Virus record (IMG/VR): IMGVR_UViG_3300034106_001222
Location: 1-32,190 of that record
DNA length: 32,190 nt
Source: a virus
Reading direction: 5' to 3' (one strand)
In this document: positions 22,800 through 31,081 of the stretch, in pieces
Position numbering within the stretch: the stretch's first letter is position 1
Layout of the letters: the number at the start of each line of letters is the position of its first letter
Program-made: the position numbers and the translations under genes
Notes under the pieces: generated by a model
Told to the model about the DNA's origin: nothing
The model's input: the letters and a program-made list of their open reading frames with translations, nothing else
The model's database searches: none

Positions 22800-22911
22800 T
22801 GTCAGCCTCGTTTTGTAGGAAATAAAGCGCACCAATGAGGATTGCACCAAAGGCAATCACGACAAACGCACCAAACATCATCAGCATAAAAGTCACGAGT
22901 ACATCCCACAT
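22792..22911 (-). CDS. 39-aa single-span membrane protein
   Basis: The gene starts at an ATG overlapping the previous TAA (TAATG) and has a strong site (GGAGGGCGGT) upstream. Its product, MWDVLVTFMLMMFGAFVVIA then FGAILIGALYFLQ, is almost entirely one hydrophobic helix with an acidic end. Its last 8 bp overlap the next gene. Size and topology are like small phage membrane effectors that affect host envelope or superinfection, but the function is unknown. Confidence 0.7.
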   Translation of the reverse strand: MWDVLVTFMLMMFGAFVVIAFGAILIGALYFLQNEADNE

Positions 22912-23249
22912 TAGACCGCCCTCCATTCACGCTCATTCAGCCCTGAATCTGACTTGACTTTATTACCTGTCAACTCTATTAAACCTAGCTTTAATAACTC
23001 GTTTAAACGGCGTGAAACTTGATTTCTGTCTAACCCGCTATGTGTGGCTATGCCATCCTTACCAAGCGCACCATGAGCCTTTAAACAGTCCACAATGATG
23101 CTGAAATGCTTGGATGCCAAGTCTTTAGCGGCATCTGCGGCTTCATAGCTGGTTACTGGGTCGGAACATCTAACCCGATTGAAGATTGGCAAGTCAAAGA
23201 ACTTCTTTACACTGCCGCCAAAATGAATATCGTCTAGTTTTGTCATCAT
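22911..23249 (-). CDS. Winged-helix DNA-binding protein
   Basis: This 112-aa protein carries DPVTSYEAADAAKDLASKHF, then LKAHGALGKDGIATHSGLDR and NQVSRRLNELLKLGLIELTG. This is a helix-turn-helix with recognition helix NQVSRRLNELLKLG and a wing (IELTGNKVKSDSG). Proteins of this pattern are common in phage early regions and resemble small MarR/ArsR-type regulators or resolvase accessory factors. An imperfect palindrome lies just upstream of the gene (23271-23288). The start could be either of two adjacent ATGs. Confidence 0.72.
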   Translation of the reverse strand: MMTKLDDIHFGGSVKKFFDLPIFNRVRCSDPVTSYEAADAAKDLASKHFSIIVDCLKAHGALGKDGIATHSGLDRNQVSRRLNELLKLGLIELTGNKVKSDSGLNEREWRAV

Positions 23250-25250: not shown

Positions 25251-25530
25251 CTTTATCTCCCTTGTATTCTTCTTTCAACCACAAAATTCGCAAGGTACGC
25301 AGTTCATCTTCATCATCAATTGATGGTGTCTTTGTCTTGCTGTACAAGTAAAACTCAGCCCTGCGAGTCATCTTGTTCTCAATTCGATCTCTAATGAACT
25401 GAAAGGCATACTCCCAGTCGCCTGATTTGATGGCAAGAGGGATGGCTACAGAGCCAGAGATAGCTTCCATGATGTCATCATCATTGAGTTGTTGGTAGGA
25501 TTCCCAAACGGCTTTGTTAAATGCTGTCAT
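25240..25530 (-). CDS. Hypothetical early protein
   Basis: This 96-aa protein starts at the ATG preceded by GAGGAGT (six bases), which lies within the last codons of its upstream neighbour; an upstream in-frame ATG at 25614 is not used. It is helical and charged: MTAFNKAVWESYQQLNDDDI, then AFQFIRDRIENKMTRRAEFY, and an acidic tail. No family was recognised. It is part of the leftward early operon. Confidence 0.6.
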   Translation of the reverse strand: MTAFNKAVWESYQQLNDDDIMEAISGSVAIPLAIKSGDWEYAFQFIRDRIENKMTRRAEFYLYSKTKTPSIDDEDELRTLRILWLKEEYKGDKDET

Positions 25531-25744
25531 CGATAGACTCCTCAATCTGTTTTTCAATTTGTTTGCACTCCTTGGCAGAGAGTTCATCTGTAATGTCAAT
25601 GCGGTTGTTGCCAACCATTAAGTAGGCTGACCAAATGAATTTATCGTAGACTCCCTCGTTGGGAGAGTAGTTGGGGTCATATTCCCATTCGACCCAAGCC
25701 TTGATATCTATTTCAAGGTCACAAAAATCTATATCCAGTTCCAT
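25517..25744 (-). CDS. Hypothetical acidic early protein (first gene of leftward operon)
   Basis: This 75-aa protein starts at the ATG after AAAGGCGTGAAT; the in-frame ATG at 25759 lacks a site. It is Trp/Tyr- and acid-rich: MELDIDFCDLEIDIKAWVEW, then DKFIWSAYLMVGNN, and a Glu/Ser/Ile helix. As the gene next to the divergent control region, it is probably the earliest expressed on this strand. The function is unknown. Confidence 0.6.
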   Translation of the reverse strand: MELDIDFCDLEIDIKAWVEWEYDPNYSPNEGVYDKFIWSAYLMVGNNRIDITDELSAKECKQIEKQIEESIDDSI

Positions 25745-25770
25745 ATTCACGCCTTTCAATGTGTTGGTAG

Positions 25771-25860
25771 AGAGTTCGTAGTGTTACACAGAATATAATG
25801 TTTAACACTAGGATAAACCCTAATTGTGGTATTTGTTTAACACTACACAATCACGCCTCT
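25771..25860. promoter_or_regulatory. Divergent control region with three operator-like repeats
   Basis: TAGTGTTACAC (25779-25789), GTTTAACACTA (25800-25810) and a second GTTTAACACTA (25835-25845) flank an AT-rich box that reads TATAAT on the plus strand (25794-25799) and TATATT on the minus strand. They lie between the leftward operon and the rightward RHH gene. The exact motif recurs at 29942-29952 in the other control region. Clear -35 boxes were not found, so promoter limits are uncertain. Confidence 0.6.
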
Positions 25861-26016
25861 ATGCCAAGACCTAAATCTGAAATGACCAAAAGCGGCAAGA
25901 CCATTGCTGTACGAGCCACCTTAAGTGAGTGGAATGAGTTCAAACGACTGGGAGGAACTAAATGGTTGCGACAACTATTAGCCGACTCAATTGAGAGACA
26001 GAAGAAAACAGTATAA
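25861..26016 (+). CDS. Ribbon-helix-helix (CopG/Arc-like) regulator
   Basis: This 51-aa protein starts at the ATG at 25861; an in-frame ATG at 25798 would sit on the -10-like box and is unlikely. MPRPKSEMTKSGKTIAVRAT provides a basic start with the beta-ribbon KTIAVRAT, followed by two helices (LSEWNEFKRLGGTKWLRQLL), the ribbon-helix-helix fold of small repressors. The gene is directly next to three operator-like repeats. It has no strong ribosome-binding site. It is the best candidate for the phage's early-gene repressor. Confidence 0.65.
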   Translation: MPRPKSEMTKSGKTIAVRATLSEWNEFKRLGGTKWLRQLLADSIERQKKTV

Positions 26017-26017
26017 T
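26012..26017 (+). promoter_or_regulatory. TATAAT box at the 3' end of the RHH gene
   Basis: A perfect TATAAT (26012-26017) is preceded by TTGAGA (25991-25996) with a short 15-bp spacer. A start near 26024 would begin just before the structured RNA at 26029-26094. Confidence 0.35.
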
Positions 26018-26028
26018 GATTTGAAACT

Positions 26029-26094
26029 TGGCTACCTTTAGCGGGGGAAAAGGCGATTCGTTACCGCCCTGCCAGTGTTTCTTCAGTAACGGCA
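26029..26094 (+). ncRNA. Structured RNA, resembles phage C4 antisense RNA
   Basis: Three potential stems are visible: GCTA/TAGC (26031-26042) with loop CCTT, GGCG/CGCC (26052-26068) and TGCC/GGCA (26070-26094). A further CGTTAC (26059-26064) can pair with GTAACG (26086-26091). The segment GGGGGAAAAGGCGATTCGTT and the following ACCGCCCTGCC recall, from memory, the C4 antisense RNA consensus found in phages upstream of replication genes. The CCTT loop with its preceding A is complementary to AAGGT at the DUF1376 ribosome-binding site (26106-26110). Not verified against a covariance model. Confidence 0.45.
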
Positions 26095-26115
26095 ACCGAA
26101 AACGTAAGGTTTTAT

Positions 26116-26880
26116 ATGCACTACTACAAACGAAATATTGGCGACTATGCAAAAAAAGCTGGTCGGCTAACTATGCTTCAGCACGGAGCGTATACGCTTC
26201 TTATTGATGCGTGTTATGACAGAGAAGTATTCCCCACAATAGAACAGGCGCTTGAATGGACTTGGGCATCTACTGAAGCAGAAGTAGAGGCGGTAAAGTT
26301 TGTTTTGTCTAGGTTTTTCAAGCTGGATAAGGATGGCTGTTATGTGCAGGACAGAGTTCTTGAAGAACTACTGAACTATCACAAGAACGCAGAGACAAAC
26401 AAACGAATCGCTGACGAAAGAGAGGCGAAGCGTAAAGAAAGTCGCACGAAGCGTGAACCAAGCGTAGACGAACCTCCACCTAACCATAAACCACTAACCA
26501 TTAACCAAGAACCAATTAAAGAGCGCACAAGAGGCTCACGCCTCTCTGCTGATTGGGTTTTGCCAAAAGAATGGGCAGACTGGGCTAAACAGGAAAGACC
26601 CGACCTAGATTTGCGTAGCGTGAGTGAGCAGTTTAGGGATTACTGGAGTGCAAAAGCTGGTTCAGGCTCTACAAAGCTGGATTGGCAAGCAACATGGCGT
26701 AATTGGGTGAGAAACCAAAAGCAAGTGTTTAAACAGGCTGACATCATCAGAACGACAGTACCCTCAAGCTCACAGCGTGACCCTGCACTTGCAAAACTTG
26801 ATGAAGATATGAAGAATGCCAAGCCAAACCCTGAGATTCTTGCCAAAATCAAAGAAGCATTAAGGGGTAAAGTAGCATGA
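26116..26880 (+). CDS. DUF1376 protein, probable replication protein
   Basis: This 254-aa protein has residues 1-100 (MHYYKRNIGDYAKKAGRLTM, LLIDACYDREVFPTIEQALE) of the DUF1376 (YdaU) type found at phage replication loci. After a charged, Pro-rich linker, the C-terminus has WVLPKEWADWAKQERPDLDL and FRDYWSAKAGSGSTKLDWQA then TWRNWVRNQ, common to phage replication-initiation proteins. It probably acts in origin recognition or helicase loading; this is inferred from family context. TAAGG precedes the ATG. It is followed by the RuvC-like gene. Confidence 0.72.
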   Translation: MHYYKRNIGDYAKKAGRLTMLQHGAYTLLIDACYDREVFPTIEQALEWTWASTEAEVEAVKFVLSRFFKLDKDGCYVQDRVLEELLNYHKNAETNKRIADEREAKRKESRTKREPSVDEPPPNHKPLTINQEPIKERTRGSRLSADWVLPKEWADWAKQERPDLDLRSVSEQFRDYWSAKAGSGSTKLDWQATWRNWVRNQKQVFKQADIIRTTVPSSSQRDPALAKLDEDMKNAKPNPEILAKIKEALRGKVA

Positions 26881-26886
26881 CAAAAC

Positions 26887-27156
26887 ATGAAGCCAATCGA
26901 CTATTGGACAGATGCAGGGAAACCTCGCAACTTAGCTACGCTGACACCACAAGAGCGCTTACAGCTACGGGAGACATTGAAGCAGATGGAGGCGAAAGAG
27001 TGGATTTTGAGATACAAGAGGAAAGCCAAAGACCTTGGGAAAATGAAAGCATCCGCATGGTGGTGGCAGACCTTATCCGACATAGAGAAAAAGCGTGGGT
27101 TACCCGCCACTAATGAACTACGTTGGCGCATGAACAACATACAAGGAAATAAATGA
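26887..27156 (+). CDS. Hypothetical basic early protein
   Basis: This 89-aa, Lys/Arg/Trp-rich helical protein reads MKPIDYWTDAGKPRNLATLT, then EWILRYKRKAKDLGKMKASA and WWWQTLSDIEKKRG. I prefer it over the overlapping frame at 26877-27113, because proteins with this Trp/Lys pattern recur in phage replication regions and it overlaps the resolvase start (ATGA). It may bind DNA, but no function is known. Confidence 0.65.
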   Translation: MKPIDYWTDAGKPRNLATLTPQERLQLRETLKQMEAKEWILRYKRKAKDLGKMKASAWWWQTLSDIEKKRGLPATNELRWRMNNIQGNK

Positions 27157-27611
27157 TTTACATAGGTATTGACGCTGGTTCAGTTAATGGCGCACTTGGG
27201 GCAATAGACCATGATGGGAATTATGTCGAGTCATTCATGATTGACCATAAGGACAAGCATATCCTCGCCTTGGTGTTTAAGAGTCGCATCCTATCCATTG
27301 TCGACCCTAAAGAGGGCGCACAGATTTGCATGGAACAGGTACACGCTATGCCTAAACAGGGTATATCGTCAACATGGAATTTTGCGAGAGCAGTCGGGGT
27401 TATTAGTGCAGTTTGCGAATTAACTAACTACCCTTTTCACTTGGTCAGCCCTCAGAAATGGAAGGGCTATTTTGGGCTAACAGCAGACAAAAACGAGGCT
27501 TTAGACCTAGCTCGAAAGCTATTCCCTAAAGCGCCACTAAAGCTCAAAAAGGACATAAACAGAGCAGAGGCGCTATTAATCGCAGAGTATTGGAGACAGT
27601 GCAATGTCTGA
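27153..27611 (+). CDS. RuvC-like Holliday-junction resolvase
   Basis: This 152-aa protein has the RNase H-fold layout of RuvC: IYIGIDAGSVNGALGAIDHD with Asp7, ICMEQVHAMP with Glu61, and DINRAEALLIAEYWR with acidic residues near the C-terminus. These acids bind the metals that cut four-way junctions. The length is normal for phage RuvC relatives. In a recombination-based phage it would resolve branched DNA before packaging. It is coupled to both neighbours by short overlaps. Confidence 0.8.
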   Translation: MIYIGIDAGSVNGALGAIDHDGNYVESFMIDHKDKHILALVFKSRILSIVDPKEGAQICMEQVHAMPKQGISSTWNFARAVGVISAVCELTNYPFHLVSPQKWKGYFGLTADKNEALDLARKLFPKAPLKLKKDINRAEALLIAEYWRQCNV

Positions 27612-27801
27612 AACTGTTGACAAAAAGGGTATTGTTATCAAGTTTGACCCCGTTGAATACGAAGCAATAAGGGCAATAGGCGAGGGTAATTTAAGCGAAG
27701 GGTTCAGGGTTTGCCTACGTTGGGCGGTGCATTTCCATGCTATCGGTTTGAGGTCTGATGACAATCTTGAATATGTTGGGCTTTGCACAGTGGCAGATTG
27801 A
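27604..27801 (+). CDS. Small ribbon-helix-helix-like protein
   Basis: This 65-aa protein contains GIVIKFDPVEYEAIRAIGEG, then NLSEGFRVCLRWAVHFHAIG. The short strand (IVIKF) plus two helices matches the ribbon-helix-helix pattern of small regulators. It overlaps the resolvase by 8 bp and is the last gene of this plus-strand set. It could regulate the early/late switch, but this is inference. Confidence 0.5.
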   Translation: MSETVDKKGIVIKFDPVEYEAIRAIGEGNLSEGFRVCLRWAVHFHAIGLRSDDNLEYVGLCTVAD

Positions 27802-27811
27802 CCCCTGCGAG

Positions 27812-27845
27812 GGCTTTAAAGGTGCTTTCCAGCCGTTATTTTTGT
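27812..27845 (+). terminator. Possible terminator after the rightward early genes
   Basis: GGCT...AGCC and an inner AAAG-GTG-CTTT form a weak two-part stem (27812-27834) followed by GTTATTTTTG. It lies about 10 bp after the last stop. The T-tract is good, but the stem has an internal loop. Confidence 0.4.
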
Positions 27846-27895
27846 AAATCCATCAAAAGGTACATTGTCGGGCTTTCAGGGTCTTAAAAGTAGGC

Positions 27896-27919
27896 AATAA
27901 AAAACCACCCGAAGGTGGT
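27896..27919 (-). terminator. Terminator of the second leftward early operon
   Basis: AACCACC pairs perfectly with GGTGGTT (27902-27919) around loop CGAA. On the minus strand it is followed by TTTT and more T/A (from 27901 leftward). It lies just after the end of the 27941-28144 gene. On the plus strand there is no T-tract. Confidence 0.75.
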
Positions 27920-27940
27920 TATATGTAAGTGCTTACTAAC

Positions 27941-28144
27941 TTATTGAATGGTTACATAATCGGGCGCATCTTCCCTCTCAAGCACTATAGCTTCTTGTTT
28001 TGTTGTTTTTCGCAACTCAGAGGCAACGCTATCAACTAACTTCATGAATTCATCTTGATTCATGTATTCATCAAGGTTATTCAATGTAGCAAATAAACCA
28101 AGGTCGCCATCTTCACGCATAAAACCAATTGAAACTGTTTTCAT
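27941..28144 (-). CDS. Hypothetical early protein
   Basis: This 67-aa protein starts at the ATG after GAAAGGCTTAAAA; an ATG 15 bp earlier lies on that site. MKTVSIGFMREDGDLGLFAT, then LNNLDEYMNQDEFMKLVDSV, suggest a short beta strand followed by helix. It is the last gene of the operon, followed by a strong terminator. No family was recognised. Confidence 0.6.
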   Translation of the reverse strand: MKTVSIGFMREDGDLGLFATLNNLDEYMNQDEFMKLVDSVASELRKTTKQEAIVLEREDAPDYVTIQ

Positions 28145-28202
28145 TTTTAAGCCTTTCATTTTCGGAGAATAATTTTTAAGAGTAGGGCAATGGTGGCATA
28201 TA

Positions 28203-28394
28203 TCACAAAGCCACCTCTAAGGCTTTGGTTTTTTGCTCTTCAGTAGGGTCATTTAAAGCCCACCATTCCAGCGACCCATATTTGGGGTTTTGTTTGCAAA
28301 TATCGTAAAGCCACACGTTTGCATGGGGAGAAATAAATTTCACTATTTGCCCAACAAATTGGGGTTTTGTTTGTGCGTTTGTGCCTTTAGTCAT
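28203..28394 (-). CDS. Hypothetical early protein
   Basis: This 63-aa protein reads MTKGTNAQTKPQFVGQIVKF, then ISPHANVWLYDICKQNPKYG and SLEWWALNDPTEEQ. It starts at an ATG that overlaps the previous stop, with GAGGTGAAAG upstream. It is aromatic-rich and soluble. No domain was recognised. Confidence 0.6.
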   Translation of the reverse strand: MTKGTNAQTKPQFVGQIVKFISPHANVWLYDICKQNPKYGSLEWWALNDPTEEQKTKALEVAL

Positions 28395-28546
28395 TCTTTC
28401 ACCTCATTTTTGTTAAGTATTTCTAGAATGGCTTGCACTTGCTCGGGTGATATGGTCATCCAACGGGTTTGACCATTGATAGAACGTAGCTGTATGTCTG
28501 CCTGACGTTCACCTAGTTTCTGCACTTCTTTGTCATAGTAGGTCAT
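28391..28546 (-). CDS. Small early protein (51 aa)
   Basis: This short gene starts at an ATG overlapping the preceding TGA (ATGA), preceded by AAAGGTGGGCGC, and ends overlapping the next ATG. The product is MTYYDKEVQKLGERQADIQL, then RSINGQTRWMTISPEQVQAI and a short helix. Start/stop coupling at both ends makes it very likely translated. The RWMTISPEQV segment resembles many small phage proteins of unknown function. Confidence 0.7.
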   Translation of the reverse strand: MTYYDKEVQKLGERQADIQLRSINGQTRWMTISPEQVQAILEILNKNEVKE

Positions 28547-28815
28547 GCGCCCACCTTTGAATTGTCAAAACAAAAAGAATAACCCTTTCCGTCTGCGCTA
28601 TCGCCATAACGCATATCTGCTAAATCCCAGTCTAATTTGTGCTTTTCAACTAATGCTTTAACTGCCTGAAAATGGCAGACTTCATGCGAATATTCATGAG
28701 GATATGAAATAGTGGCTTGAAAGCCTTTTCTCATGCTGTTGCCCACTGTATAGGCTTTTATTCGTGACCCTTTGGTGTTAGTGGGTGGAATATATTTTGT
28801 GTGTATTGCTATCAT
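28543..28815 (-). CDS. Hypothetical early protein
   Basis: This 90-aa protein starts at the ATG after TTGAAAGGCTTAAAC; an extension to 28854 lacks a site. KYIPPTNTKGSRIKAYTVGN, then ISYPHEYSHEVCHFQAVKAL, include several His/Cys residues that could bind metal, but no clear motif. The same opening (IAIHTKYIPPTNTKGSRIKA) occurs in many small phage proteins. The function is unknown. Confidence 0.6.
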   Translation of the reverse strand: MIAIHTKYIPPTNTKGSRIKAYTVGNSMRKGFQATISYPHEYSHEVCHFQAVKALVEKHKLDWDLADMRYGDSADGKGYSFCFDNSKVGA

Positions 28816-28883
28816 GTTTAAGCCTTTCAAAGTCTTGCAAAAGCGCAAGCCCAAGGGGACAAAATCCCCAAGGGTTTGAACTC

Positions 28884-29525
28884 TTACTCCGCCACTGTTT
28901 CGGTTATTTCGGCTTCTACGGGTTTAGTTTTTGACCGATAGCACCATGCTGGAACTTTCGCCATTGCTTGCTCTTTAAATGGCATCATTACCCCTACAAA
29001 GTGGTCATCCATCATAGGAAAACTAACTAAACAAGAATCTTTTCCTCTTTGAAGCAAGCTAGGGACTTGTCTTTTTCCCCAAATTTCCTCTGAAAAGTCA
29101 ACGAAACGAACTAAAAGGTCAGGGTTAAAAGTGGCGGGTTTTATATCTTCATCCTTGAAAACAAGGGGAATAACTCTATCAGTATCGGGAAAACGTGCCT
29201 CATGAGCTTGAAAACGCACTGTTTGATTGTCGCAAATACACTCTATTGCTAACCCGTCAACGCTAAAATGCAACATATCGTCACCTTGCTTTTTAGTGCC
29301 TTTGAGTTTAATTAAATGCTCAGTAGGCAAAATCACGTTAATCGGCGTATCTGACTGGATGCCGTCAACAAACAAACGCCCTAAAACGTGCCCGTCAGTG
29401 GCTTCTATATATGTGCCCCGATTGTCACGGGCTACGTTAATTCCTTGCAAATAGTAGCGAATATCCTTTTTAGCACAGAGGTGCAACATACCCCGAATGT
29501 CTTTGCGGCGGAGAGTGAATTTCAT
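28884..29525 (-). CDS. Short sliding-clamp-like protein (DnaN beta-clamp fold)
   Basis: This 213-aa protein contains YIEATDGHVLGRLFVD (residues 39-54), matching the TDGHRL signature of the bacterial DNA polymerase III beta clamp. It also has RRKDIRGMLHLCAKKDIRYY near the start and HFVGVMMPFKEQ near the end, like the clamp's VGVIMPM closing strand. It is much shorter than the usual ~370 aa, so one or more of the three clamp domains must be missing or reduced. It may load host replication proteins on phage DNA or block the host clamp. The RBS is AAAAAGGC ahead of ATG. Confidence 0.7.
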   Translation of the reverse strand: MKFTLRRKDIRGMLHLCAKKDIRYYLQGINVARDNRGTYIEATDGHVLGRLFVDGIQSDTPINVILPTEHLIKLKGTKKQGDDMLHFSVDGLAIECICDNQTVRFQAHEARFPDTDRVIPLVFKDEDIKPATFNPDLLVRFVDFSEEIWGKRQVPSLLQRGKDSCLVSFPMMDDHFVGVMMPFKEQAMAKVPAWCYRSKTKPVEAEITETVAE

Positions 29526-29549
29526 ATTAAAGCCTTTTTAGTTGAAAAC

Positions 29550-29567
29550 CCTAGCAAAATCGCTAGG
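29550..29567 (-). promoter_or_regulatory. Hairpin in the clamp gene leader
   Basis: CCTAGC (29550-29555) pairs with GCTAGG (29562-29567) upstream of the clamp-like gene; on the minus strand it is followed by GTTTTC. It could be a weak attenuator between the 27-aa gene and the clamp gene. Confidence 0.35.
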
Positions 29568-29605
29568 TGCTAGGATACTGCAAGCAATACCCTAAACCCT
29601 AGAAT

Positions 29606-29689
29606 TTATCCCCTAAATGCAAGCAAAGCGCCGATATAAGCAAAGACTATAACGCAAGCAATAGCCCAAAGAATTTCTTTTTTATCCAT
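29606..29689 (-). CDS. 27-aa single-span membrane peptide
   Basis: This very short gene has the leader AAGGGGCTTAAC before its ATG, nearly identical to that of its neighbours. The product is MDKKEILWAIACVIVFAYIG then ALLAFRG: a charged start, one membrane helix and a basic end. It lies in the gap between two larger genes of the same operon. The shared leader supports translation. The function is unknown. Confidence 0.6.
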   Translation of the reverse strand: MDKKEILWAIACVIVFAYIGALLAFRG

Positions 29690-29690
29690 G

Positions 29691-29876
29691 TTAAGCCCCT
29701 TGATTCTTAGCTATAGCGTTAAAGCTACGCAAATATGCAAGGGCGTTGCTTCTGTCATCGCAAAGTATTTTGTCCAATAATTCGCCCGAGCTTTTGTAGA
29801 GTTTGACTAAATAGTAACCGCTTTGGGTTTGCTCAAAAACTGTCCAATTCCCATTCTTTTGCTCTTTGATTTTCAT
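29691..29876 (-). CDS. Hypothetical early protein (first gene of second leftward operon)
   Basis: This 61-aa protein reads MKIKEQKNGNWTVFEQTQSG, then YYLVKLYKSSGELLDKILCD, a beta-meander with a helix following (NALAYLRSFNAIAKNQ). The site is AAGAGGCTTCAAT before ATG. It is closest to the operator-like repeat at 29942-29952. No known family was recognised. Confidence 0.55.
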   Translation of the reverse strand: MKIKEQKNGNWTVFEQTQSGYYLVKLYKSSGELLDKILCDDRSNALAYLRSFNAIAKNQGA

Positions 29877-29941
29877 ATTGAAGCCTCTTTAGTTTGTTGA
29901 TTGTTTACTAGGTTTTGTTTCCTAGTGACTCTAATATAACG

Positions 29942-29952
29942 TAGTGTTAAAC
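29942..29952. promoter_or_regulatory. Operator-like repeat at the second control region
   Basis: TAGTGTTAAAC is the exact reverse complement of GTTTAACACTA at 25800-25810 and 25835-25845. It lies between two ATATAA boxes upstream of the leftward operon, and the bases that follow (ATAAACCCTAAT) also recur near the first control region. Confidence 0.55.
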
Positions 29953-29994
29953 AATATAACATAGGTATAAACCCTAATCGACCTACAATTATTT

Positions 29995-30018
29995 CTATTG
30001 ATAAAGAATAATCAATAG
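29995..30018. repeat. 8-bp inverted repeat
   Basis: CTATTGAT (29995-30002) pairs exactly with ATCAATAG (30011-30018) across an AT-rich loop. AATAGG just after can instead pair with the later CCTATT, so alternative structures are possible. It lies in the AT-rich part of the origin candidate. Confidence 0.55.
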
Positions 30019-30096
30019 GTTTTCCCTATTCTAGTTTATTTGTATTTAATGACCCATTGGTCAGTATCCCTAAAATGGTGCATAACTCCCATATGC

Positions 30097-30118
30097 TTAC
30101 TGACTGACTGGTCAGTAA
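30097..30118. repeat. 8-bp inverted repeat TTACTGAC/GTCAGTAA
   Basis: TTACTGAC and GTCAGTAA pair exactly around TGACTG. The 9-mer TGGTCAGTA in this element also appears at 30058-30066, next to a TGACC/GGTCA pair. It lies 32 bp before the tandem repeats. Confidence 0.55.
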
Positions 30119-30149
30119 TTAACTGTTGATAATTAATTATCGTTTGACT

Positions 30150-30224
30150 TAAGTTAGTCAGCGCTTACTTCGCCTAAGTTAGTTAGTGCTTACTCCGCTT
30201 ATGTTAGTTAGCGCTTACTTTGAT
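30150..30224. repeat. Three 25-bp tandem repeats (iteron-like)
   Basis: Three consecutive units of exactly 25 bp (30150-30174, 30175-30199, 30200-30224) share TAAGTTAGTTAGcGCTTACT, with a few substitutions. An AT-rich region and inverted repeats lie upstream, and a G-rich tract follows. This layout is typical of iteron-type replication origins or partition sites. The DUF1376 protein is a possible binder. Confidence 0.75.
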
Positions 30225-30248
30225 GGGGGGGAGGGGTGGTTGGTGGTG
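30225..30248 (+). other. G-rich tract
   Basis: Seven G, A, four G, then repeated GG pairs separated by T follow the tandem repeats at once. It could form a G-quadruplex on the plus strand or mark a replication/packaging landmark. Confidence 0.4.
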
Positions 30249-30292
30249 AGTAAATATTGGGGTAGCCTCCGCCACACTGGAAAAGCCAAATG

Positions 30293-30305
30293 TAGTGTTT
30301 AACAC
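30293..30305. promoter_or_regulatory. Operator-like element before the late operon
   Basis: TAGTGTTTAACAC combines both orientations of the TAGTGTT / AACAC motif found at the two early control regions. It lies between the tandem repeats and the late genes. Confidence 0.4.
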
Positions 30306-30610
30306 GAACAAAGGCTTATCTGGATTAGGAAAGGAGGTTGGTTGACAAATAGGAATGTCACCCGTGAGTGGGTATGTCCTTTTAAAGGAGAGCCTCTCGT
30401 TTATCTAAGTTAGAGTAGGTTGTCAGTCCTTACTCTCCACGCTACAAGCCCCGTTCAAGATGTGAGTCTTTACTTAAGAACTACATGGTTCACTACGTTT
30501 ATCCTACTTGGTCGGCTCAACCGCATAGAGGGGTGGGTGATGCCCCCGTTTGATGTCACTATACAAGATTCCTGTTCTCGTGTAAAGTATGTACTAACTT
30601 CCAAGACGCA

Positions 30611-30655
30611 TGGAGACTGACTCTAGGGACTACTGGGGTAGCGCAACAGTCTCCA
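30611..30655. promoter_or_regulatory. 9-bp inverted repeat before the small terminase gene
   Basis: TGGAGACTG (30611-30619) and CAGTCTCCA (30647-30655) are exact reverse complements. An inner CTAC/GTAG pair (loop TGGG) lies between them. The stem ends 33 bp before the small terminase ATG. It is a possible leader structure, or a recognition site for packaging, since pac/cos sites often lie next to this gene. Confidence 0.5.
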
Positions 30656-30688
30656 GCCGTGTTGGTGATCTTCCTGATTGGATAAAAG

Positions 30689-31081
30689 ATGAACGTAGTA
30701 GATGCACTTCCTGACAACCTAAAGAAAAAGGGTCGCCCCAAAGGTTCAGGTAAATTGACTATGGCTAAGTATGCTGATGCCAAGCCATTAGCTATGTTGC
30801 CCAAGACTGAGAATCAAAGGGTCAAGGAACTCAAGGATTTGTTGATAAACAGTGCTGGAGTCAATGTTGTACAGAAGACTGTTCAGATTGCCCTTGATGA
30901 TGACCACCCTGCACAGATGGCGGCATTGAAGCTATGTATGGATAGGATGCTTCCCGTTGCTCTGTTTGAAAAAGAGAAGAATCAGAGAAGTGCTGTAAAC
31001 ATTACAATCTCAGGCATTGGTGGCGTAACCATTGGTGACAACACAGTAGAAGCTGAAGATATAGAAAGCAAAGATGTCTGA
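30689..31081 (+). CDS. Probable terminase small subunit
   Basis: This 130-aa protein lies directly before the large terminase and overlaps it by 8 bp. The N-terminus is basic with GRPKGSGKL (AT-hook-like, DNA-binding). The centre is helical (RVKELKDLLINSAGVNVVQK) and ALKLCMDRMLPVALFEKEKN resembles small packaging subunits of the DUF5681-type pattern (RPKG...ALRLCxxRxxP). The C-terminus (AVNITISGIGGVTIGDNTVE) could contact the large subunit. It would recognise the packaging site and regulate cutting. Position is the main evidence. Confidence 0.65.
   Translation: MNVVDALPDNLKKKGRPKGSGKLTMAKYADAKPLAMLPKTENQRVKELKDLLINSAGVNVVQKTVQIALDDDHPAQMAALKLCMDRMLPVALFEKEKNQRSAVNITISGIGGVTIGDNTVEAEDIESKDV

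Follow-up and report, generated by a model that had tools for sequence, protein, structure and literature searches.

Which protein reads the short motif that recurs in the early control regions of an uncultivated phage? The record in question, IMGVR_UViG_3300034106_001222, belongs to an uncultivated virus of bacteria of 32.2 kb, and its full length (32,190 nt) is referred to here as the window. The original prediction described an 11-bp motif at five places and proposed that a neighbouring ribbon-helix-helix gene uses it to control both leftward early operons and possibly the late side. The motif is part of a 15-bp palindrome, and the copies of this palindrome are real, conserved operators, restricted to control regions, that track a small gene, P1, both beside it and at a distance. 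We consider it likely that the palindrome is the operator of the phage-encoded P1 protein, which would be an autorepressor of the divergent early promoters that also acts at a second control region and perhaps on the late side. Binding by P1, repression through this binding, and the positions of the promoters are all predicted from sequence.

The palindromic operator and its distribution

Two control regions are concerned. Region 1 (25760-25860) is the divergent intergenic stretch between a leftward early operon, whose first gene starts at 25759, and a rightward operon that opens with P1 (51 aa) and continues with a DUF1376 replication-type gene. Region 2 (29880-30690) separates a second leftward operon, whose first gene starts at 29876, from a putative small terminase gene. 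Judging from the open reading frames (ORFs), the large terminase gene exits the right end of the window and appears to continue from its left end.

The exact 11-mer, TAGTGTTNAAC, was found at four of the five reported places, namely at 25800 and 25835 on the minus strand and at 29942 and 30293 on the plus strand. The copy at 25779 is inexact and reads TAGTGTTACAC, with one mismatch. The reversed control pattern had no match in the genome. When two mismatches were allowed, 42 copies of the 11-mer were found vs 38 expected, and it was rejected as the informative unit. Comparison with relatives revealed this unit to be the 15-bp palindrome TAGTGT-nnn-ACACTA (TAGTGTNNNACACTA) and not the 11-mer. 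The sites in the window are:

25779 to 25793: operator site A, TAGTGTTACACAGAA, two mismatches to TAGTGTNNNACACTA, at the putative start point of the leftward operon; near-perfect in relatives (TAGTGTGTCACACTT in L010, TAGTGTTACACACTT in L022)
25796 to 25810: operator site B, TAATGTTTAACACTA, one mismatch; perfect in many relatives
25831 to 25845: operator site C, ATTTGTTTAACACTA, three mismatches, with a perfect right arm and a weak left arm, in the putative P1 promoter spacer; relatives read TATTGTTAAACACTA and TACTGTTAAACACTA
29942 to 29956: region 2 operator, TAGTGTTAAACAATA, one mismatch; L014, L021, L030, L044, and L048 have a perfect version (TAGTGTTAAACACTA) in their second region
30293 to 30307: late-side operator, TAGTGTTTAACACGA, one mismatch, ~380 bp upstream of the small terminase gene; aligned in one column across nearly all loci of the window's clade and gone in the sister clade described below

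The window contains three palindromes with at most one mismatch (25796, 29942, and 30293), compared to 0.05 expected and a maximum of one in 100 shuffles. All three are outside genes, and the two weaker copies (25779 and 25831) also fall within the two control regions; these two are recognisable mainly through better versions at the same place in relatives. The enrichment was likewise observed in a set of 22 representative loci (318 kb, window included), where 43 sites with at most one mismatch were found vs 0.8 expected, and 20 perfect sites vs 0.1 expected. A check of whether the motif occurs just as often within genes came out in its favour, as 39 of the 43 sites lie outside ORFs of at least 100 aa.

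A search of viral contigs for P1 yielded 80 loci, ~47 of them with P1 at 80% identity or more. Deeper relatives, collected via the terminase and a recombination-type gene, encode P1 proteins with 49%–60% identity. Conservation of the motif was borne out across dozens of upstream regions: nearly all of the ~47 closer loci retain sites at −82, −65, and −30 from the P1 start, and the deeper relatives carry diverged versions of the form TAnTGTnnnACAnTA. An exact 15-mer scan of the collection returned at least 117 new loci, of which about 14 among the matches listed clearly share genes with this phage group.

Gene insertions also bear on the distribution of the sites. In L008, L009, and L014, one extra leftward gene (130 aa in L008 and L009, 66 aa in L014) splits the divergent region. 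The A/B-type sites stay by the old leftward operon and site C stays by P1. A separate operator lies at −178 of the added gene, in a layout resembling region 2 of the window. Every transcription unit has kept or gained an operator in these three phages.

At the second region, a site with at most one mismatch is present in 10 of 38 distinct P1-bearing phages, compared to 0 of 14 phages that carry an unrelated gene, R1, in place of P1. The predicted control of the second leftward operon is therefore supported for the window and part of its relatives, but not throughout the clade. On the late side, the column is conserved in nearly all phages of the window's clade and its right arm is variable, so the position of the predicted late-side site stands while the site itself is degenerate. 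Taken together, region 1 gives good support for a regulon under the neighbouring protein, region 2 gives support that varies between phages, and support from the late side is weak.

The reverse complements of three deeper loci, L329 (4532), L324 (10941), and L343 (2798), have perfect operator variants (TAGTGTCAGACACTA, TAGTGTACGACACTA) ahead of a further leftward early gene, which indicates that not all of these phages control the same promoters. L324, L343, and L312 were rejected as cases of an operator without P1, because the slot for P1 is not seen on their contigs. A site in L053, TAGTGTTAAACGTTA (two mismatches), located 3.8 kb from a P1 homologue, was dropped, as it is at about chance level in 14 kb.

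P1 tracks the operator

The regulators considered were P1, a winged-helix protein (22911-23249), P2 (27604-27801), and an 80-aa leftward neighbour of P1.

25861 to 26016, plus strand: P1, candidate repressor of 51 aa, likened to ribbon-helix-helix proteins by its sequence pattern

These candidates are separated by a natural replacement. A sister clade, collected with the RuvC-like gene of L267 (66 loci, 559 kb), has a similar gene order, with the 122-aa R1 in the P1 slot. No TAGTGTNNNACACTA site with at most one mismatch was found in this clade, including in 37 RuvC-to-terminase intervals, and the operator is thus also missing from its second region, about 4 kb from region 1. Conversely, L381 has a sister-type RuvC yet encodes P1, and P1-type operators are present. 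The 80-aa neighbour was undetected in L313, L315, and L321, all of which carry both P1 and the operator. From these three patterns, P1 is the only one of the four candidates that tracks the operator. Enrichment, conservation, and the loss at both regions in the clade without P1 give good support to the original prediction of a shared operator, to which the neighbouring small protein would bind.

It is quite improbable that the winged-helix protein or P2 acts on the palindromes instead. Both genes are present near these regions across the clade, and the winged-helix protein has weak matches to DNA-binding families, but homologues of both are encoded in the sister clade (34%–44% identity for the winged-helix protein, 35%–49% for P2), where the palindrome is absent. 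Moreover, clearly diverged forms of P2 (about 42% identity) stand behind the same operators.

In L267 (2476-2608) and about 28 relatives, R1 replaces P1 and the divergent region holds a different palindrome, CACTGC-N5-GCAGTG, which is probably the operator of R1. A second convincing copy of it was not found elsewhere.

P1 and its operator also appear to change together. Among 110 distinct pairs of upstream region and P1, the operator base n3, just before the right ACA, was G in none of 113 sites with Thr, Tyr, or Ile at residue 14 of P1, compared to 59 of 86 sites with Gln or Lys at this residue. In the P1 tree, the Tyr14 proteins group with the Gln14 and Lys14 proteins with good support; nevertheless, their operators are of the Thr14 type. 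This co-variation points in the right direction for a direct contact, although it rests on very few independent changes and a Fisher test overstates its strength. In L306, the late site (CTGTACGACACAA) shares its operator centre with the region 1 site of the same phage (TAATGTACGACACTA), a sign that the factor works at a distance.

Still less probable than another phage regulator is a host transcription factor whose site the phages exploit for their early promoters. Searches of reference genomes yielded no P1-like genes, and a second element (AGGA..CCCT) that remains where P1 is absent could be a contact for a host factor or RNA polymerase. A host factor would not explain why the operator vanishes exactly where P1 is replaced, nor why its sequence shifts together with P1 residue 14.

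The P1 protein

The predicted gene beside the first cluster is present at 25861, but its identity as a ribbon-helix-helix protein found no family or structure match. Searches of P1 against Pfam (including RHH and Arc), NCBIfam, and PDB gave no match, and family searches detected no helix-turn-helix. A Foldseek structure search returned nothing, hhalign against a narrow Arc alignment gave a probability of 0.2%, with no sequence or profile similarity to Arc, and the Arc family search was negative in all nine cases (0/9). AlphaFold2 modelled the P1 monomer at moderate confidence, with helices at 21-29 and 34-50 and without a strand (predicted local distance difference test score, pLDDT, 76; predicted template modelling score, pTM, 0.39). 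The conserved pattern x-I-A-V-R-x-T is suggestive, and a ribbon-helix-helix fold is plausible on this basis.

P1 was found neither in the 84,980 genomes nor in the isolate phage collection that were searched. Both the regulator family and the phage group appear undescribed in the libraries used. L304, L306, L309, and L325 encode two P1 paralogues, of which the second has Gly16 and Lys18 or Val18 in place of Ala16 and Arg18, and has no operator upstream.

Proposed promoters and mechanism

The putative promoter elements of region 1 and the genes that flank the control regions are:

25792 to 25797, minus strand: leftward −10-like box, TATATT here and TACAAT in relatives, flanked by sites A and B, proposed from sequence and alignment reading
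25824 to 25851, plus strand: putative rightward promoter of P1, with −35 TTGTGG, a 16-bp spacer holding site C, and −10 CACAAT, proposed from the alignment
25517 to 25759, minus strand: first gene of the leftward early operon (ORF), kept beside region 1 across the window's clade and proposed to be governed by sites A and B
29691 to 29876, minus strand: first gene of the second leftward operon (ORF), downstream of the 29942 site; its homologue in the distant relative L105 also begins beside a perfect site
30689 to 31081, plus strand: putative small terminase gene (ORF with homologues), the anchor for region 2, so assigned from its position next to the large terminase

Across the alignment, the P1 promoter reads TTGTCA or TTGTGG, a spacer of 15–17 bp, and TACAAT, CACAAT, or TACTTT. 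In the window's clade, the ATG of P1 is 10 nt after the −10 element, and a Shine-Dalgarno-like 4-mer is present in only 2 of 70 upstream regions; because of this, P1 probably has an mRNA with little or no leader. The motif had also been described as close to ATATAA boxes at four of its five places. By our reading this applies to three: the copies at 25779 and 25800 flank one box and that at 29942 has two, whereas those at 25835 and 30293 have none.

In the proposed mechanism, P1 would bind 15-bp palindromes of the form TAnTGTnnnACAnTA. Made early, it would occupy site C in the spacer of its own promoter and thereby repress its own gene. At sites A and B it would repress the leftward early operon, and it could reach the second leftward operon through the 29942 site and perhaps the late side through 30293. 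Repression is favoured because site C lies in the spacer and A and B sit on either side of the leftward −10-like box. The least probable alternative is that P1 binds mainly to activate the leftward promoters or to control replication or packaging near the terminase, which would fit the lack of a readable good −35 in the leftward promoters and the one site within the long untranslated stretch before the terminase gene, but not the positions of site C, which fills the P1 promoter spacer, and of A and B, which cover the −10 and start region, since these would block and not aid RNA polymerase.

Searches for an integrase (PF00589) and an HTH_3 repressor (PF01381) in the window and four relatives found neither. 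For this reason, early-gene shut-off in a lytic cycle, similar to that by Cro or Arc, is more likely than a role in lysogeny.

Several observations weigh against P1 as the repressor acting on these operators. The link between residue 14 and base n3 reflects very few independent changes, and the relatives are not independent. The co-occurrence at region 1 could stem from linkage alone, and a strong region 2 site occurs in just the 10 of 38 distinct phages given above. P1 as a ribbon-helix-helix protein has no fold support, and the proposed promoters are missed by an automatic scan. Finally, the sequence immediately upstream of P1 homologues lacks an operator where these have Gly16 or Lys18, or where they lie within operons of other phages (L052-L084).

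The second element and further features

A segment reported to follow the motif in both regions, ATAAACCCTAAT, is indeed present at 25813-25824 and 29967-29978, at differing distances from the motif. It belongs to a second conserved element, separate from the operator:

25810 to 25824: second element, AGGATAAACCCTAAT, whose GGA-N5-CCCT core hardly varies across region 1 of P1 phages (alignment)
29962 to 29976: region 2 counterpart, TAGGTATAAACCCTA (relatives read TAGGGATAAACCCTA), with its centre 20 bp from that of the operator

In region 2 of several relatives, a perfect TAGTGTTAAACACTA is followed by TAGGGATAAACCCTA five bases on. A CCCT-bearing element remains in the R1 sister clade, which has no P1, and the second element is therefore not simply a P1 site. 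The spacing between the AAACCCTAAT segment and the −10-like box is not the same in region 1 as in region 2, and the segment was for this reason rejected as a fixed −35 for the leftward promoters.

Other features were observed near the control regions. Between P1 and the DUF1376 gene, 26025-26092 on the plus strand matches the int-alpA RNA (Rfam RF02996; 38.2 bits, cut-off 35.8); this match was also found in L007, and eight further relatives were searched without a match. In the DUF1376 gene, ~40 bases (26476-26516) are 97.6% identical to Pseudomonas phages MR13, MR15, and psageK9, with no other match between the phages in 12 kb. Repeats of the form TTAGTTAGTGCTTACT are located at 30150-30220, before the terminase gene, and a similar unit lies beside the operator in L008, L009, and L014. 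A G-rich run at 30225-30250, GGGGGGGAGGGGTGGTTGGTGG, is kept ahead of the late-side operator in most relatives of the window's clade. The ~350 bp before the small terminase gene (30340-30690) are apparently untranslated and contain a strongly conserved core, TTGACAAATAGGA...CACCCGTGAGTGGG.

Comparison with known systems

In lambdoid phages, early repressors of the Cro type lower divergent early promoters via several 15–17 bp palindromes. The role proposed for P1, an early product acting on divergent early promoters through palindromes, would be similar. In contrast to Cro-type repressors, P1 has no helix-turn-helix match, and neither a CI-type partner nor an integrase turned up in the five records searched, the window and four relatives.

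The Arc/Mnt region (immI) of the Salmonella phage P22 resembles region 1 in its layout. According to the record annotation, Arc (53 aa) is encoded directly behind its own promoter, with the operator inside this promoter and a divergent promoter adjoining, and a small RNA (sar) likewise lies behind arc. Unlike those of Arc, the putative P1 operators also recur at a second operon, 4 kb distant, and ahead of the late genes. Moreover, no antirepressor or lysogeny module was found here.

Among the Aca-type proteins, which repress anti-defence operons, Aca8 of SIRV2 is a small early protein with a predicted winged helix-turn-helix, proposed to shut down early operons that share a regulatory sequence (PMC11065993). 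The likeness lies in a small early protein, several early operons, and one shared regulatory sequence, whereas SIRV2 is an archaeal virus and its protein a winged helix-turn-helix; in our phage no anti-CRISPR gene was seen, and none was looked for. AmrZ is a cellular ribbon-helix-helix autorepressor of 108 aa that uses paired half-sites (PMC3325190). This is the mode proposed for P1 if it is a ribbon-helix-helix protein, but P1 is a phage protein of 51 aa, and its profile matches no PDB chain, AmrZ included.

A wider reading is possible, although on balance unlikely: P1 would found an unrecognised repressor family and be the master timing switch of a large, apparently strictly lytic group of uncultivated phages, with a promoter-operator cassette that is copied before newly acquired genes and swapped as a unit with the non-homologous R1 and its operator. 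Regulator, operator, and target promoters are predicted here from sequence alone for an uncultivated phage group, and in genomes that are otherwise alike, P1 comes with one operator and R1 with a different one, a natural swap that makes the pairing of operator and regulator testable. Compared with the systems above, the phage repressor-operator arrangement is of a well-known, ordinary kind, carried here by an apparently undescribed regulator family.

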